64,000 bases of DNA. It comes from Arthrobacter sp. HY1533 (GTDB lineage: Bacteria > Actinomycetota > Actinomycetes > Actinomycetales > Micrococcaceae). The stretch lies in NCBI RefSeq assembly GCF_027568515.1, contig NZ_JANKZF010000009.1, positions 1 through 64,000 of the forward strand, in the 5' to 3' direction. The notes under the pieces are model-generated. The model ran no database searches. It worked only from the letters and a program-made list of their open reading frames with translations, and was not told the DNA's origin. The number at the start of each line of letters is the position of its first letter. The first letter of the stretch is position 1. Below, in pieces: positions 14,296-60,320 of this stretch. The position numbers and the translations under genes were made by a program.

Positions 14296-14325
14296 TTACC
14301 GCCCCCTGCACCCCTGTATTACAAT
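14296..14325 (+). promoter_or_regulatory. Probable glyA promoter
   Basis: A -10 box TACAAT at 14320-14325 is the best in the spacer. A weak -35, TTACCG at 14296-14301, is 18 bases upstream. The start would fall near 14332, just where the riboswitch aptamer begins. Confidence 0.5.
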
Positions 14326-14330
14326 TGGGG

Positions 14331-14410
14331 AGTTGCAACTGGCGATGAGGTGGGCCACCACCGGGGAGCAGCACGAAAGAAGACCAAAGCGATCGTACGC
14401 CTGGGACGCA
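14331..14410 (+). promoter_or_regulatory. ZTP (pfl) riboswitch ahead of glyA-folD
   Basis: The leader contains conserved blocks of the pfl/ZTP aptamer in the right order: CAACTGGCGATGA, then GGTGGG-CC-ACCACCGGGGAGC, and after a variable linker CGCCTGGG (14398-14405). ZTP riboswitches sense the folate-stress signal ZTP/ZMP (phosphorylated AICAR) and turn on one-carbon genes, classically glyA, folD and pur genes. This matches the downstream genes exactly. A following stem (GCCAACAC with GTGTTTGGC, 14424-14444) and T-rich stretches (CCTTTTCG and GTTTTTTCG) look like the expression platform. A covariance-model search for Rfam RF01750 would settle it. Confidence 0.88.
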
Positions 14411-14494
14411 AAGGTCACGAAAAGCCAACACCTACGTGTTTGGCGATAACCTTTTCGAAGAAGTTTTTTCGTGCCGCCCATCCAGGAGTCTGTA

Positions 14495-15781
14495 GTGACC
14501 TTCACCCCCACCCAGTCCGTGACCAACGCCCCGCTCTCTGAGCTGGACCCGGAAATCGCAGCCGTCTTGAAGGACGAGCTCGCACGCCAGCGCGACACGC
14601 TGGAAATGATTGCATCCGAAAACTTCGCCCCCCGCGCCGTCCTGGAAGCCCAGGGTTCCGTGCTGACCAACAAGTACGCCGAGGGCTACCCGGGCCGCCG
14701 CTACTACGGCGGCTGCGAAGCCGTTGACGTGGCCGAGAACCTGGCCATCCAGCGCGTCAAGGACCTCTTCGGCGCCGAATACGCCAACGTCCAGCCGCAC
14801 TCCGGCGCCCAGGCAAACGCCGCAGCGCTCGCAGCCATGATCAAGCCGGGCGACAAGATCATGGGCCTGTCCCTGGCCCACGGTGGCCACCTGACCCACG
14901 GCATGAAGCTGAACTTCTCCGGCAAGCTGTACGAGGTTGCCGCCTACGAAGTTGAGCCCGACACCTTCCGCATCGACATGGACAAGCTGCGCGCCCAGGC
15001 CATCGCCGAGAAGCCCCAGGTCATCATCGCCGGCTGGTCCGCCTACCCGCGCCAGCTGGACTTTGCCGCGTTCCGTGCCATCGCCGATGAAGTTGGCGCC
15101 CTGCTCTGGACTGACATGGCCCACTTCGCCGGCTTGGTAGCTGCCGGCCTGCACCCGAACCCGGTGCCCTACTCCGACATCGTCACCTCCACGGTGCACA
15201 AGACCCTCTCCGGCCCGCGCTCCGGCGTGATCCTGGCCAAGCAGGAGTGGGCCAAGAAGCTCAACTCCTCCGTGTTCCCGGGACAGCAGGGCGGCCCGCT
15301 CATGCACGTCATCGCCGCCAAGGCCGTGGCCTTCAAGGTTGCTGCCGGTGAAGAATTCAAGGAACGCCAGGCCCGTGTGCTCGAAGGCGCCAAGATCATC
15401 GCCGAGCGCCTGAACGCCCCCGACGTTGCTGAAGCCGGCGTGTCCGTGCTGACCGGTGGCACCGATGTCCACCTGGTGCTGGTTGACCTGCGCAACTCCG
15501 TACTGGACGGCCAGCAGGCCGAAGACCTCCTGCACAGCGTTGGCATCACCGTGAACCGCAACGCCGTTCCGTTCGACCCCCGCCCCCCGATGGTCACCTC
15601 CGGCCTGCGCATCGGCACCCCGGCACTGGCCACCCGTGGCTTCGGCGCCCCGGAATTCACCGAAGTTGCCGAGATCATCGCAACAGCCCTCAAGGGTGGT
15701 GCCGACGTGGACGCCCTCAGCGCCCGCGTCAAGGCGCTGGCAGCGAACTTCCCGCTGTACCCCGGTCAGGAAGAATGGTAA
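14495..15781 (+). CDS. glyA: Serine hydroxymethyltransferase
   Basis: GlyA converts serine and tetrahydrofolate to glycine and 5,10-methylenetetrahydrofolate using pyridoxal phosphate. The 428-residue protein shows the PLP-lysine motif [13 protein letters not shown], with Lys236 as the Schiff-base residue. It also has the N-terminal hallmark [20 protein letters not shown] and the folate-loop [10 protein letters not shown] chose the GTG at 14495 because AGGAG lies 6 bases upstream; an earlier in-frame GTG at 14471 lacks a ribosome site. It is controlled by the ZTP riboswitch and runs straight into folD. The codon bias is strongly GC-ending, as in highly expressed genes. Confidence 0.97.
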
Positions 15782-55335: not shown

Positions 55336-56178
55336 ATGGCACTTGGTGGCAATCCGGTTTTTGCGAACAACAAGAACTTCAAGGACACCCCGGCCACGCG
55401 CGGCAACGTCTACGGCGGTGCCGACACCATGGCCGCCCAGGCGCAGCTTTCAGCGCAGCAGCTGCAGGACCTGTACAACAAGCCCTCGGCCAACGCCAAC
55501 CAGACGGGCCGGATGACGTACGACGACGTCATCATGAAGACCGTCATGACCCTTGGCTTGGTGCTGGTTGGTGCCGCCCTGGGCTGGTTCGTTCCCGTGC
55601 TCCTGTTCCCGGGCATGATTGTGGGCCTGGTGCTTGGCCTGGTGAACTCCTTCAAGAAGGAACCCTCGCCTGCACTCATCCTGGCCTACGCCGTGTTCGA
55701 GGGCATGTTCCTTGGTGCCCTGACGGGTGTGCTTGAAGCGCAATTCCCGGGCATTGCCATCCAGGCCCTCCTGGGCACGCTCAGCGTTTTCCTGGTGACA
55801 CTGGTTCTGTTCCGCAACGCCAAGGTCCGCGCCACCCCGAAGATGACGCGCTTCTTCATGATCGCCCTGGGCGGTTACGCACTGTTCTCGCTGGTGAACT
55901 TCTTCCTCATGATCTTCAACGTCACCACCACCCCGTGGGGCATGAACGGCATGGACATCCCCGGAACCAACATCCCCTTCGGCGTCGTGATTGGCCTGCT
56001 GGCCATAGGCCTGGCAGCCTTCTCGCTGATCGTGGACTTCACTTCCATCGAGCAGGGTGTCGAGCGCGGCCTGCCCACCAAGTACTCCTGGACGGCTGCC
56101 TTTGGCCTGACAGTGACGCTCGTGTGGCTGTACGTGGAGATCCTGCGCCTGCTGGCGATCCTCCGGGGCAACGACTAA
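55336..56178 (+). CDS. Bax inhibitor-1/YccA-like membrane protein
   Basis: This 280-residue protein has seven hydrophobic segments after a polar N-terminus of about 70 residues. It resembles the bacterial Bax inhibitor-1/YccA-like (DUF1310-type UPF0005) family: KTVMTLGLVLVGAALGWFVP, FEGMFLGALTGVLEAQFPG and IEQGVERGLPTKYSWTAAFG. The motif YVEILRLLAIL at the end is typical of actinobacterial members. The family includes pH-sensitive calcium leak channels. Function in bacteria is not settled. TTGGAGG precedes the ATG. A terminator-like hairpin follows. Confidence 0.9.
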   Translation: MALGGNPVFANNKNFKDTPATRGNVYGGADTMAAQAQLSAQQLQDLYNKPSANANQTGRMTYDDVIMKTVMTLGLVLVGAALGWFVPVLLFPGMIVGLVLGLVNSFKKEPSPALILAYAVFEGMFLGALTGVLEAQFPGIAIQALLGTLSVFLVTLVLFRNAKVRATPKMTRFFMIALGGYALFSLVNFFLMIFNVTTTPWGMNGMDIPGTNIPFGVVIGLLAIGLAAFSLIVDFTSIEQGVERGLPTKYSWTAAFGLTVTLVWLYVEILRLLAILRGND

Positions 56179-56309: not shown

Positions 56310-57497
56310 ATGAACGTTTCACCCCTGATTTGGGGCATTACCATTGTGGTTATTTTGGCCCTTCTGGCCTTTGACTACTTCTTCCACATTCGCAAGGCGC
56401 ATATTCCCACGTTGAAGGAAGCTGCCATCTGGTCGTCGATTTACGTCGGCTTGGCTGTTGTCTTCGGCATCGCTATGTTTGCGTTTGGCGGTGCCACCAT
56501 GGGTGGCGAGTACTTCGCCGGCTACATCACCGAAAAAGCGCTGAGCGTTGATAACTTGTTTGTCTTCCTGGTCATCATGGCCAGCTTCAAGGTTCCGCGT
56601 GAGGACCAGCAGAAGGTTCTGCTGTTCGGCATTGTTTTTGCGCTGATTGCCCGCACGGGCTTCATCTTTGCCGGTGCCGCGCTGATCAACACCTGGTCCT
56701 GGATGTTCTACATCTTCGGCATCATCTTGCTGGTCACTGCCGGTAACTTGCTCAAGGGCGAGGACAGCGGCGATGACGATGCTGACAACTTCATCATCAA
56801 GTTGGCCAAGCGTTTCTTCAACACTTCCGAGCACTACGACGGCGACAAGCTGGTCACGAAGATTGATGGCAAGAAGGTCCTGACCCCGATGCTGCTGGTC
56901 ATGGTGGCCATTGGTGGCACCGACCTGCTGTTCGCACTGGATTCCATCCCGGCCATCTTCGGCCTGACCCAGAACGTGTACATCGTGTTCACAGCCACCG
57001 CGTTCTCCCTGATGGGCCTGCGCCAGCTGTACTTCCTGCTCGATGGCCTGCTGGACCGTTTGATCTACCTCTCTTACGGCCTGGCTGCGATCCTGGCGTT
57101 CATTGGTGTGAAGCTGGTCCTGCACGCTTTGCATGAGAACAACTTGCCGTTCATCAACGGTGGCGAGCATGTCCCGGTCTTTGAGATCTCCACGGGCTTG
57201 TCCCTGACGGTCATCATCGGTGTCCTGGTGGTCACGGTTGTGGCCTCCTTGGTGAGCAAGTCCGGCAAGGCGCAGACGGTGCTGAACAATGCCCGTCGCC
57301 ACGCTGTCAGCTACCTTGACCTGGATTACACCGCAGACAAGGGCGAGCGTGAGCGCGTGTACAACCTGCTCATGGAAGAGGAAAAGGCCATCGCGGTTCT
57401 GGAAACCAAGTACCGCGACAAGCACCCGGAATCTGAGGAGATTCTGGAGCAGATCGCCGAAGCGCACCAGGCCCACGCGGACCACCTGAGCGCGTAG
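56310..57497 (+). CDS. TerC family membrane protein, copy 1
   Basis: This is a 395-residue integral membrane protein of the TerC/Alx family (about eight segments). Family motifs include EYFAGYITEKALSVDNLFVF, with its essential acidic/asparagine residues, and VAIGGTDLLFALDSIPAIFG. Members probably export manganese or other divalent metals. It differs from copy 2 at only about 16 positions (96% identity by my count), clustered at the extreme N-terminus, residues 29-57 and the last 40; the central 800 bases are nearly identical. It lacks the riboswitch found before copy 2 and its ribosome site is weak, so its expression may differ. It is preceded by a short spacer with a terminator. Confidence 0.93.
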   Translation: MNVSPLIWGITIVVILALLAFDYFFHIRKAHIPTLKEAAIWSSIYVGLAVVFGIAMFAFGGATMGGEYFAGYITEKALSVDNLFVFLVIMASFKVPREDQQKVLLFGIVFALIARTGFIFAGAALINTWSWMFYIFGIILLVTAGNLLKGEDSGDDDADNFIIKLAKRFFNTSEHYDGDKLVTKIDGKKVLTPMLLVMVAIGGTDLLFALDSIPAIFGLTQNVYIVFTATAFSLMGLRQLYFLLDGLLDRLIYLSYGLAAILAFIGVKLVLHALHENNLPFINGGEHVPVFEISTGLSLTVIIGVLVVTVVASLVSKSGKAQTVLNNARRHAVSYLDLDYTADKGERERVYNLLMEEEKAIAVLETKYRDKHPESEEILEQIAEAHQAHADHLSA

Positions 57498-57518
57498 TTC
57501 GCAACAAAGGGTCTCGCT

Positions 57519-57585
57519 CCCCACGCCCTCCCAAACGGCGGCTCGCAAGCGAGCCGCCGTTTGGGTCCCTCGGGCGCGTGGGCCC
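57519..57585. repeat. CCCCACGCCC/GGGCGCGTGGG repeat, copy 2 with hairpin
   Basis: The blocks CCCCACGCCCTCCC (57519-57532) and CCCTCGGGCGCGTGGGCCC (57567-57585) match copy 1 near 20236 exactly. The middle carries a 16-base perfect hairpin (57531-57546 with 57549-57564, CCAAACGGCGGCTCGC arms). TerC copy 2 has no such element after it, so this element entered after or independently of the gene duplication. It may act as terminator of copy 1. Confidence 0.8.
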
Positions 57586-57587
57586 AG

Positions 57588-57667
57588 GCTCGACCAGCGA
57601 GGTCTCGACGGGCTCGACCAGCGGTGGTCGAGCCTGTCGAGACCCTCTTTGCTTAATAGGGGATTGC
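57588..57667. repeat. 80-bp block shared with the region after TerC copy 2
   Basis: These 80 bases are identical, base for base, to 59081-59160. They include a long hairpin: GGTCTCGACGGGCTCGACCA pairs with TGGTCGAGCCTGTCGAGACC with one mismatch. The block then runs through TTTGCTTAATAGGGGATTGC, which in the other copy ends at galK's own stop codon. It is therefore part of the tandem duplication that includes TerC. Confidence 0.92.
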
Positions 57668-57695
57668 CAGGAGATCTTCCGGGCACCCGGGGCCG
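57667..57695 (-). pseudogene. galK 3'-end remnant
   Basis: Directly after the shared block, about 29 bases continue to match the 3' end of galK at 59160 onwards, with a few substitutions. On the minus strand it still reads as PAPGARKIS in galK's frame, but the stop codon has changed from TAG to TGG. Beyond about 57695 the match is lost. It is a non-functional fragment left by a duplication covering TerC, the repeat and the end of galK. Confidence 0.8.
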
Positions 57696-57703
57696 GGCCG
57701 GAT

Positions 57704-57731
57704 TTCACTTCCGGAGCGGATCGGATATGCT
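57704..57731 (+). promoter_or_regulatory. Possible promoter of TerC copy 2
   Basis: TTCACT (57704-57709) and TATGCT (57726-57731) are spaced by 16 bases and would start a message near 57739, right at the riboswitch aptamer's 5' end. Both boxes are imperfect, so the assignment is moderate. Confidence 0.5.
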
Positions 57732-57740
57732 GGTCAAAGC

Positions 57741-57865
57741 GTAGGGGAGTATCCCGCAGCGCTGAATCCGTCAACACGTGGGGCAATGAAGCCCCGCCGG
57801 GTTCGGTGTACGGCTGTTTTTTCAGCCGGTGGAGAGACTTGCGGCGATAGTCGCTGCCCTCCTAC
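57741..57865 (+). promoter_or_regulatory. yybP-ykoY manganese riboswitch
   Basis: The leader has the consensus blocks of the yybP-ykoY (Mn2+) aptamer in order: GGGGAGTATCCC at the 5' side, CCGTCAACACG in the middle and GGAGAGACTTGCGGC near the 3' end. The 5' GTAGG (57741-57745) pairs with CCTAC (57861-57865) to close the element. A central TGTACGGCTGTTTTTTCAGCC hairpin also fits. Such riboswitches commonly control TerC/Alx and MntP genes in response to manganese, matching the gene that begins 14 bases further on. An Rfam RF00080 search would confirm it. Confidence 0.85.
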
Positions 57866-57879
57866 CGAAAGTCTGAATC

Positions 57880-59067
57880 ATGACTGTTTCCCCCCTGATC
57901 TGGGGCATTACCATTGTGGTTATTTTGGCCCTTTTGGCCTTTGACTACTTCTTCCACATTCGCAAGGCGCATATTCCCACGTTGAAGGAAGCGGCCGTTT
58001 GGTCCTCCATTTATGTGGGTCTGGCTGTTGTGTTTGGCATCGTGGTGTTTGTGTTTGGCGGTGCCACCATGGGTGGCGAGTACTTCGCCGGGTACATCAC
58101 CGAAAAGGCGCTGAGCGTTGATAACTTGTTTGTGTTCCTGGTCATCATGGCCAGCTTCAAGGTTCCGCGTGAGGACCAGCAGAAGGTTCTGCTGTTCGGC
58201 ATTGTTTTTGCGCTGATTGCCCGCACGGGCTTCATCTTTGCCGGTGCCGCGTTGATCAACACCTGGTCCTGGATGTTCTACATCTTCGGCATCATCTTGC
58301 TGGTCACTGCCGGGAACTTGCTCAAGGGTGAGGACAGTGGCGGGGACGATGCTGACAACTTCATCATCAAGTTGGCCAAGCGTTTCTTCAACACCTCCGA
58401 GCACTACGACGGCGACAAGCTGGTCACGAAGATTGATGGCAAGAAGGTCCTGACCCCGATGCTGCTGGTCATGGTGGCCATTGGTGGCACCGACCTGCTG
58501 TTCGCACTGGATTCCATCCCGGCCATCTTCGGCCTGACCCAGAACGTGTACATCGTGTTCACGGCCACCGCGTTCTCCCTGATGGGCCTGCGCCAGCTGT
58601 ACTTCCTGCTCGATGGCCTGCTGGACCGTTTGATCTACCTCTCTTACGGCCTGGCTGCGATCCTGGCGTTCATTGGTGTGAAGCTGGTCCTGCACGCTTT
58701 GCATGAGAACAACTTGCCGTTCATCAACGGTGGCGAGCATGTCCCGGTGTTTGAGATTTCCACGGGCTTGTCCCTGACGGTCATCATCGGTGTCCTGGTG
58801 GTCACGGTTGTGGCCTCCTTGGTGAGCAAGTCCGGCAAGGCGCAGACGGTGCTGAACAATGCCCGCCGCCACGCGGTGAGCTACCTGGACCTGGACTACA
58901 CCGCTGACAAGGGCGAGCGTGAGCGCGTGTACGGGATGCTGATGGTGGAGGAGAAGACGATCTCGGCCATGGAGACCAAGTACCGTGACAAGCACCCGGA
59001 GTCCGAGGAGATCCTGGAGCAGATCGCACAAGCGCACCAGGCCCACAAGGACCACCTGGGCGCGTAA
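57880..59067 (+). CDS. TerC family membrane protein, copy 2
   Basis: This 395-residue TerC/Alx-like protein is nearly identical to copy 1 in its central part, with the same metal-path motifs EYFAGYITEKALSVDNLF and GGTDLLFALDSIPA. It is behind the yybP-ykoY riboswitch, so it should be induced by manganese and export it. Because its 3' flank runs directly into intact galK, this locus looks like the original one and copy 1 like the duplicate. Both copies share an unusual share of T-ending codons compared with neighbours. ATG at 57880 follows CCTACCGAAAGTCTGAATC, without a strong ribosome site. Confidence 0.93.
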   Translation: MTVSPLIWGITIVVILALLAFDYFFHIRKAHIPTLKEAAVWSSIYVGLAVVFGIVVFVFGGATMGGEYFAGYITEKALSVDNLFVFLVIMASFKVPREDQQKVLLFGIVFALIARTGFIFAGAALINTWSWMFYIFGIILLVTAGNLLKGEDSGGDDADNFIIKLAKRFFNTSEHYDGDKLVTKIDGKKVLTPMLLVMVAIGGTDLLFALDSIPAIFGLTQNVYIVFTATAFSLMGLRQLYFLLDGLLDRLIYLSYGLAAILAFIGVKLVLHALHENNLPFINGGEHVPVFEISTGLSLTVIIGVLVVTVVASLVSKSGKAQTVLNNARRHAVSYLDLDYTADKGERERVYGMLMVEEKTISAMETKYRDKHPESEEILEQIAQAHQAHKDHLGA

Positions 59068-59069
59068 AA

Positions 59070-59138
59070 GGTCTCGACAAGCTCGACCAGCGAGGTCTCG
59101 ACGGGCTCGACCAGCGGTGGTCGAGCCTGTCGAGACCC
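59070..59138. repeat. TCGACAAGCTCGACCAGCG hairpin repeat, copy 3
   Basis: GGTCTCGACAAGCTCGACCAGCG is followed by GGTCTCGACGGGCTCGACCA and its inverted partner TGGTCGAGCCTGTCGAGACC with one mismatch. The last part is the same as the 57601 element, and the first unit is related to the tandem repeat at 16697. It lies between TerC copy 2 and galK and can act as a terminator for both converging genes. Confidence 0.85.
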
Positions 59139-59159
59139 TCTTTGCTTAATAGGGGATTG

Positions 59160-60320
59160 CTAGGAGATCTTCCGCGCACCCGGCGCGGGGGAGACGGCGA
59201 AGATGTCCGGGGCGGTGAAGCCGGCGTCGGCAAAGGCGGCCAGCACGGCTGCACCCACGGCAGCCTGGCTGGCCACCGGGATGAGGGCAATGGCGGAACC
59301 GCCAAAGCCGCCGCCGGTCATGCGGGCACCCAGCGCGCCATGGGCCAGTGCCGTGTCCACGGCCAGGTCCAGCTCGGGGCAGGAGATTTCAAAGTCGTCG
59401 CGCATGGAGGCGTGGCTTGCGGTGAGCAGCCCGCCAATGGCGGCCGGGCCGGCGTCGTCCAGCACCGCAACGGTGTCCAGGACGCGCTGGTTCTCGGTCA
59501 CAATGTGGCGGACCCGGCGGAACGTCTCCTCATCCAGCAGGCCGGCCGCCTCGGGGAGACCCGCTGCATCGACGTCGCGCAGCGAGGCAACGCCCAGCAC
59601 CTCGGCGCCCAGTTCGCAGGACGCGCGGCGGGCCGCATAGCCGCCCGTGGCGTGCGCGTGGGTGACCTTGGTGTCCACCACCAGGATCAGCAGCCCGGCG
59701 GCAGCCAGGTCCAGGGGCACAAGCTTCGATTCCTGTGTGCGGCAGTCCAGGAAGACTGCGTGGCCGTCGGTGGACAGCAGTGAGGCGGACTGGTCCAGGA
59801 TGCCTGTCGGCGCGCCCACTACCTCGTTCTCGGCACGCTGGCCCACAAGCACCAGCTCGTTCAGGCTCAGCCCTGCACCCTGAAGTTCGTTGAAGGCCGT
59901 GGCCACGGCGCACTCAATGGCCGCCGAGGAGGACAGGCCGGCGCCGGAGGGCACGGTTGAGTGCAGGTACAGGTCAAAGCCGCCGATCTCGACGCCCATT
60001 TGGCGCAACACCCACACGACGCCCAGCGGGTAGGCCGTCCAGCCGGACATGGTGTCCTGCGAGAGCCCGTCCAGGTCCACGGTCACCACACCCTGGTCGC
60101 CGAAGCTGGAGACCAGCCGGGCCGTGCTGCCTTCGCGGCGGCGGATGGCCACGGCGGCGGCCCGGTCAATGGCGAACGGCAGCACAAAGCCCTCGTTGTA
60201 GTCCGTGTGCTCACCGATAAGGTTCACGCGACCGGGTGCCGCCCAGACGCCGTCGGGCGTTTCGCCAAAGGTCTTCTCGAAGGAGGCGGCTACGAAGGCC
60301 GGGTCAAGGGAGGCGCTCAT
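59160..60320 (-). CDS. galK: Galactokinase
   Basis: GalK phosphorylates galactose to galactose-1-phosphate, the first committed step of the Leloir pathway. The 386-residue GHMP kinase has the galactokinase signature GRVNLIGEHTDYNEGFVLP, the ATP-binding PSGAGLSSSAAIE and the late motif MTGGGFGGSAIALI. Its start overlaps the galT stop by four bases (ATGA), so the pair is translated together. The last 9 codons and the stop are duplicated, in altered form, at 57667-57695. It is the last gene of the minus-strand gal operon. Confidence 0.96.
   Translation of the reverse strand: MSASLDPAFVAASFEKTFGETPDGVWAAPGRVNLIGEHTDYNEGFVLPFAIDRAAAVAIRRREGSTARLVSSFGDQGVVTVDLDGLSQDTMSGWTAYPLGVVWVLRQMGVEIGGFDLYLHSTVPSGAGLSSSAAIECAVATAFNELQGAGLSLNELVLVGQRAENEVVGAPTGILDQSASLLSTDGHAVFLDCRTQESKLVPLDLAAAGLLILVVDTKVTHAHATGGYAARRASCELGAEVLGVASLRDVDAAGLPEAAGLLDEETFRRVRHIVTENQRVLDTVAVLDDAGPAAIGGLLTASHASMRDDFEISCPELDLAVDTALAHGALGARMTGGGFGGSAIALIPVASQAAVGAAVLAAFADAGFTAPDIFAVSPAPGARKIS

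Follow-up and report, generated by a model that had tools for sequence, protein, structure and literature searches.

Two intact TerC genes stand in tandem between a Bax inhibitor-1-like gene (Bax1) and galK in Arthrobacter sp. HY1533, and, judged against related genomes, the head native to this place is on the upstream gene (copy 1) while the native galK-side flank is on the downstream gene (copy 2), so that neither copy is simply the original. The pair probably arose by recombination between a riboswitch–TerC cassette (R type) and the native TerC of the Bax1–galK interval, which lacks a riboswitch (N type).

Organization of the locus

The genome is a 4.30-Mb draft of 68 contigs, and the window, i.e., the whole stretch of 64,000 nucleotides that was analyzed, is part of contig 63. 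The features from Bax1 to galK are as follows:

55336..56178, + strand: Bax1 (PF12811), the usual upstream neighbor of native TerC
56310..57497, + strand: TerC copy 1, with native head (ATGAAC, without riboswitch), homogenized core, and apparently cassette-like tail
57512..57586, + strand: inverted repeat including a second genome repeat, CCCTCGGGCGCGTGGGCCCA (19 CCCTCGGGCGCGTGGGCCCA sites at up to two mismatches)
57585..57697, + strand: 113-bp block, upstream copy, made up of a terminator-like palindrome, a spacer, and 31 bp of galK end
57667..57697, − strand: trapped galK 3′ end (27 of 31 bases identical to galK)
57698..57740, + strand: start of cassette-type sequence (riboswitch promoter region), where similarity to cassette L062 begins at 57701
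57741..57843, + strand: leader RNA, manganese-riboswitch-like, with four helices
57861..57865, + strand: CCUAC, a possible alternative partner of the leader 5′ strand, suggested by fold and alignment
57880..59067, + strand: TerC copy 2, with cassette head (ATGACT), homogenized core, and apparently native-like tail
59078..59190, + strand: 113-bp block, downstream copy, continuing into galK
59160..60320, − strand: galK, intact (PF10509, PF00288, PF08544)

Both copies encode intact proteins of 395 residues, which score 167.5 and 167.4 bits against PF03741 (TerC; curated cut-off of 27.8). The first-pass annotation had described the tandem pair correctly as about 96% identical, a figure that holds for the proteins (16 of 395 residues differ, 95.9% identity); the DNA differs at 64 of 1188 nucleotides, stop codon counted (94.6%). 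It had also recognized that a block ending in galK recurs behind both copies, giving it as 80 bp plus 29 bases of galK; the block measures 113 bp, 31 of them from galK, with five differences between 57585–57697 and 59078–59190. The galK stop is changed in the upstream copy (TAG to TGG at 57668), as had been noted, and the three non-stop differences in the trapped end all fall at third codon positions (codon reading by eye). The 61-bp stretch 57640–57700 has a single further good match in the genome (59133–59190, E 1e-18), the next best being at 0.07, by which a chance resemblance to the galK end is ruled out, in line with the annotation.

The palindrome GGTCTCGACRRGCTCGACCA (57601–57644 and 59094–59137) is a terminator-like hairpin with a 20-pair stem, placed here between convergent genes. 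It has 161 half-sites genome-wide at up to one mismatch, against none for the reversed control pattern; since this part is frequent, only the approximately 54 bp adjoining galK are diagnostic of duplication, and this galK-adjacent part occurs only twice in the genome. An element similar to the 57512–57586 inverted repeat is found 3′ of TerC in three of 15 native loci; because it is confined to these three and is repeated in the genome, its use as proof of a native flank behind copy 1 was dropped.

The native TerC locus in relatives

The genus comparison comprised 23 genomes, 22 besides HY1533. TerC is present at the Bax1–galK place in 15 of the 22, and the question of one or two TerC genes in relatives, raised with the first-pass annotation, is answered by a single copy at all 15 loci. 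Each of these is preceded by Bax1, starts with ATGAAC as in copy 1, and is followed by galK (at a distance below 400 bp at 14 loci and of 1190 bp at the fifteenth), and the riboswitch motif was found in none of the 15 when the 300 bases upstream of TerC were scanned; the native head is therefore that of copy 1. The annotation had taken copy 2 as the original site and copy 1 as a duplicate inserted upstream, from which the riboswitch was lost or to which it never belonged; the 15 native loci speak against both statements.

In the 13 genomes that have the native gene as their sole close TerC, nothing matches the leader DNA of copy 2; in G007 and G017, a match lies at a second TerC, at another locus. 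On this comparison, the riboswitch and the copy 2 head appear to be later arrivals at the Bax1–galK place. The seven remaining genomes (L170–L176; G009, G012, G006, G022, G005, G010, and G004) all have Bax1 and galK without TerC between them, so TerC has been gained or lost at this place within the genus. Apart from this, an Arthrobacter-type Bax1–TerC–galK locus is present in L063, which has the TerC gene of L011 (G015) and comes from a record under the name Sporosarcina beigongshangi; that name or the culture looks wrong.

Riboswitch–TerC cassettes at other loci

Riboswitch–TerC genes close to copy 2 are located elsewhere in five genomes:

L006: G005, Arthrobacter cryoconiti
L007: G017, Arthrobacter sp. 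H35-D1, on a 3.6-kb contig with short flanks
L012: G007
L062: Pseudarthrobacter sp. PS3-L1
L178: G376, with second codon ATT instead of ACT

Bax1, galK, and galT are absent from the available flanks of all five, those of L007 being short. Of the four contexts in which flank proteins were tested (L178, L061, L062, and L139), two have recombinase genes alongside. L178 is preceded by genes for a resolvase, a transposase (rve and Mu C-terminal domains), and an AAA protein, and is followed by a second resolvase gene; upstream of L061 lie a resolvase gene and two low-molecular-weight phosphatase genes. One flank protein each of L062 and L139 gave no match in a Pfam search, and a search of plasmids at the protein level gave 2633 records with a best identity of 75.9%, on which a plasmid would be no more than a candidate source. 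The similarity between the window and L062 begins four bases past the trapped galK end, which identifies the joint as galK end against cassette promoter.

Divergence along the two copies

The identity between the copies is patchy. In the head, it is 95.5% in bases 1–111 and 84.8% in 112–216; the four core segments follow with 98.6%, 94.5%, 99.7%, and 98.4%, and the tail with 85.0%. The highest identity of any relative to either copy is 82.9% in 112–216 and 88% in the tail, and relatives reach 91.2% in the core stretch 541–860. The synonymous divergence (dS) between the copies is 0.40 in the head (1–216), 0.057 in the core (217–984), and 0.565 in the tail, indicating that the core was homogenized by conversion. 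The core has 12 differences against 35.8 expected when positions are weighted by their variability in relatives (none of 5000 draws was as low), and the longest identical run is 185 bp (p 0.0038). A recent uniform duplication is ruled out by the contrast of core with head and tail. Of the "recent event or ongoing gene conversion" suggested in the annotation, conversion is thus upheld; head and tail are about as diverged as between species, and "recent" can describe at most the last conversion and not how the pair originated. Native and cassette TerC genes at separate loci are 78.6% (G007) and 81.4% (G017) identical overall, with core segments at 68–88%, and the homogenized core is absent from these pairs; homogenization accompanies the tandem arrangement in the three genomes compared.

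The heads and tails were compared with natives and cassettes in site tables, from which the native L017 was omitted (it is nearly identical to L016), and in trees, in which it was included; the cassette gene L178 of G376 is in neither, and the outgroup was made up of eight out of 71 distant TerC genes, with the remaining 63 unused. Codon 2 is AAC in 14 of 14 aligned natives, as in copy 1, and ACT in four of four aligned cassettes, as in copy 2. In the tail (986–1185), there are seven sites at which the cassettes agree with copy 1 and natives prefer copy 2, and none of the reverse kind; the first 230 bases give two versus five, in the opposite sense (head site 12 runs counter to the head pattern), and the core one and one. 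In the tail tree, copy 1 and the cassettes form a group (support 94/87), and AU tests give p 0.14 for both copies as sisters and p 0.08 to 0.12 for the other groupings tried, none of which is thereby rejected; the copy 2 tail also has some residues common to cassettes. There is thus moderate support for swapped tails, in which that of copy 1 would be cassette-like and that of copy 2 native-like.

The whole-gene tree, which places the cassette genes as sister to both copies (99/97), would fit a cassette overwriting both cores or cassettes descending from the HY1533 lineage. The latter case, in which the riboswitch head was gained in the tandem copy of the HY1533 lineage and the cassettes elsewhere derive from it, takes its argument from this tree and is unlikely, although it ranks first among the alternatives: the same tree is expected if a cassette overwrote both cores, and the cassettes, in genomes of two genus codes, occupy different loci and lack the palindrome–galK flank.

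The leader RNA of copy 2

A total of 41 leaders were found, of which 38 were aligned first and 35, with near-duplicates removed by eye, were used for covariance model R1. These 35 support four helices, with 94.0% of cells paired compared with 32–48% in slid controls. Double-change cells number 83 against 31.9 (sd 4.4) in shuffles, none of 500 being as high; a weaker measure, pairs changed on both sides, was reached by 26 of 500 shuffles. The folding energy of the window leader is −66.8 kcal/mol (z −5.05). Its 5′ strand GUAGG has two possible partners, CUUGC (57838–57842) and CCUAC (57861–57865), the latter immediately preceding GAAAG, a ribosome-site-like motif; in the six aligned leaders with GCAGG instead of GUAGG, CCUGC stands at the CCUAC position. 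It is plausible that the two alternative partners would act as a switch.

GGGAGUA and CGUCAACA are present both in the leader and in the Rfam consensus of the manganese riboswitch yybP-ykoY (RF00080), and, like that riboswitch, the leader is placed before a metal-export gene, here TerC. A leader of the yybP-ykoY family precedes terC in Corynebacterium glutamicum (PMC3890552). The window leader is not itself matched by RF00080, even in a 171-base search at E 10. Among 246 genomes of the class, R1 has matches in 106, HY1533 included, whereas RF00080 exceeds the Rfam gathering cut-off in none and has matches in 10 at E 0.01; within the genus, its matches are weak and none is at a TerC leader. One place in G497 (contig 1, near 1071330–1071433) is matched by both R1 and RF00080, at 40.1 and 29.6 bits, and a gene for a GDT1-family antiporter follows it. 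Downstream genes were inspected for R1 matches in five of the 106 matched genomes, plus HY1533, and the four matches other than that in G497 all precede TerC relatives. Given the conserved motifs and the G497 place matched by both models, the leader is classed from its sequence as manganese-riboswitch-like, not as a member of RF00080 by Rfam's own rule, and its predicted ligand is a metal, most likely Mn2+.

Elsewhere in the window, a ZMP/ZTP riboswitch lies at 14325–14413 (+ strand; 45.7 bits, Rfam cut-off 39), just 5′ of an open reading frame (14471–15781) that reads like serine hydroxymethyltransferase (named by eye); it looks ordinary.

Origin of the tandem pair

For the favored recombination of a cassette with the native gene, we infer the following direction and order of events. 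A cassette of R type, present at varied loci in Arthrobacter-group genomes and the presumed donor, would have met the native N-type TerC, and two joints would suffice: an illegitimate one that set the galK end against the cassette promoter (57697|57698) and a homologous exchange inside TerC. The product would be Bax1, a TerC with N head and R-like tail, the palindrome, the galK end, the riboswitch, a TerC with R head and N-like tail, and galK. Gene conversion, either during the exchange or afterwards, would have made the middle of approximately 770 bp almost identical. Against this entry of a cassette, the trapped galK end is unexplained by integration of a simple circle, unless the incoming molecule carried it.

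That galK end would follow from one unequal joint if riboswitch, TerC, and galK end had been duplicated in plain tandem, with copy 2 as the original and copy 1 later losing its riboswitch, and the galK side is indeed whole only behind copy 2. Such a course has a small chance, since the riboswitch is found at no native locus, the divergence between the copies is non-uniform, and the leader and the start codons of copy 1 are those native to the genus, which would not be brought back by a simple loss. Slightly less probable still is a one-sided entry of linear cassette DNA, homologous inside TerC and illegitimate on the other side, by which copy 1 would have been wholly native at first. This accounts directly for the galK end behind copy 1, and one-sided integration has a precedent (PMC3240628), but a second exchange is required to give copy 1 its cassette-like tail. 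An assembly artifact, suggested by the 68 contigs of the draft, is very improbable: the longest identical run measures 185 bp, and every head and tail adjoins a unique flank of its own, which would leave a single path through all the pieces.

Comparison with known systems and significance

The recombination proposed here for HY1533 resembles tandem duplication through unequal or one-sided recombination with incoming DNA, in which a homologous exchange and a second joint create a tandem copy (PMC3784515; PMC3240628); those were laboratory events, the pneumococcal ones spanning approximately 100–900 kb. As in other paralogs homogenized by gene conversion, a near-identical core lies between diverged ends; unlike the usual case, the ends that stay different in HY1533 include the control region. 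The event is of an ordinary kind, seen unusually clearly, and the riboswitch is a useful by-product.

The TerC family has roles in manganese efflux and metalation, with activity known from Bacillus subtilis only (PMC10550928). The paralogs there have overlapping roles, meeY being under a manganese riboswitch and meeF in a constitutive operon. The HY1533 pair is similar in having one TerC under such a putative riboswitch and one without; MeeY and MeeF are encoded by separate genes, whereas the HY1533 genes form a tandem pair homogenized by conversion. The likely arrangement in HY1533 is one TerC protein under two control regions, one without a riboswitch and one with a putative metal-sensing leader RNA, each of which would be expected to govern expression of its own copy. 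In literature of partial coverage, no report was found that joins gene conversion, riboswitch, paralog, and tandem duplication, or manganese riboswitch, TerC, and Mn2+.

A broader and more tentative proposal, which we hold at somewhat under even chances, is that a mobile riboswitch–TerC cassette can capture a resident gene by recombining inside it, so that a single protein comes under two regulatory regimes and is kept unchanged by conversion, and that the leader belongs to an actinobacterial subclass of manganese riboswitches with two mutually exclusive 5′-strand partners, largely overlooked by the present Rfam model. The case also illustrates how an error of polarity, corrected here, arises from reading one flank only. 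Should the ligand be confirmed, the matches of R1 in 106 class genomes, compared with none above the cut-off for RF00080, would improve how manganese homeostasis is annotated in the class. The pair is a clear example of a duplicate that may owe its retention to the control region and not to the protein, as the heads differ and the body is copied over.
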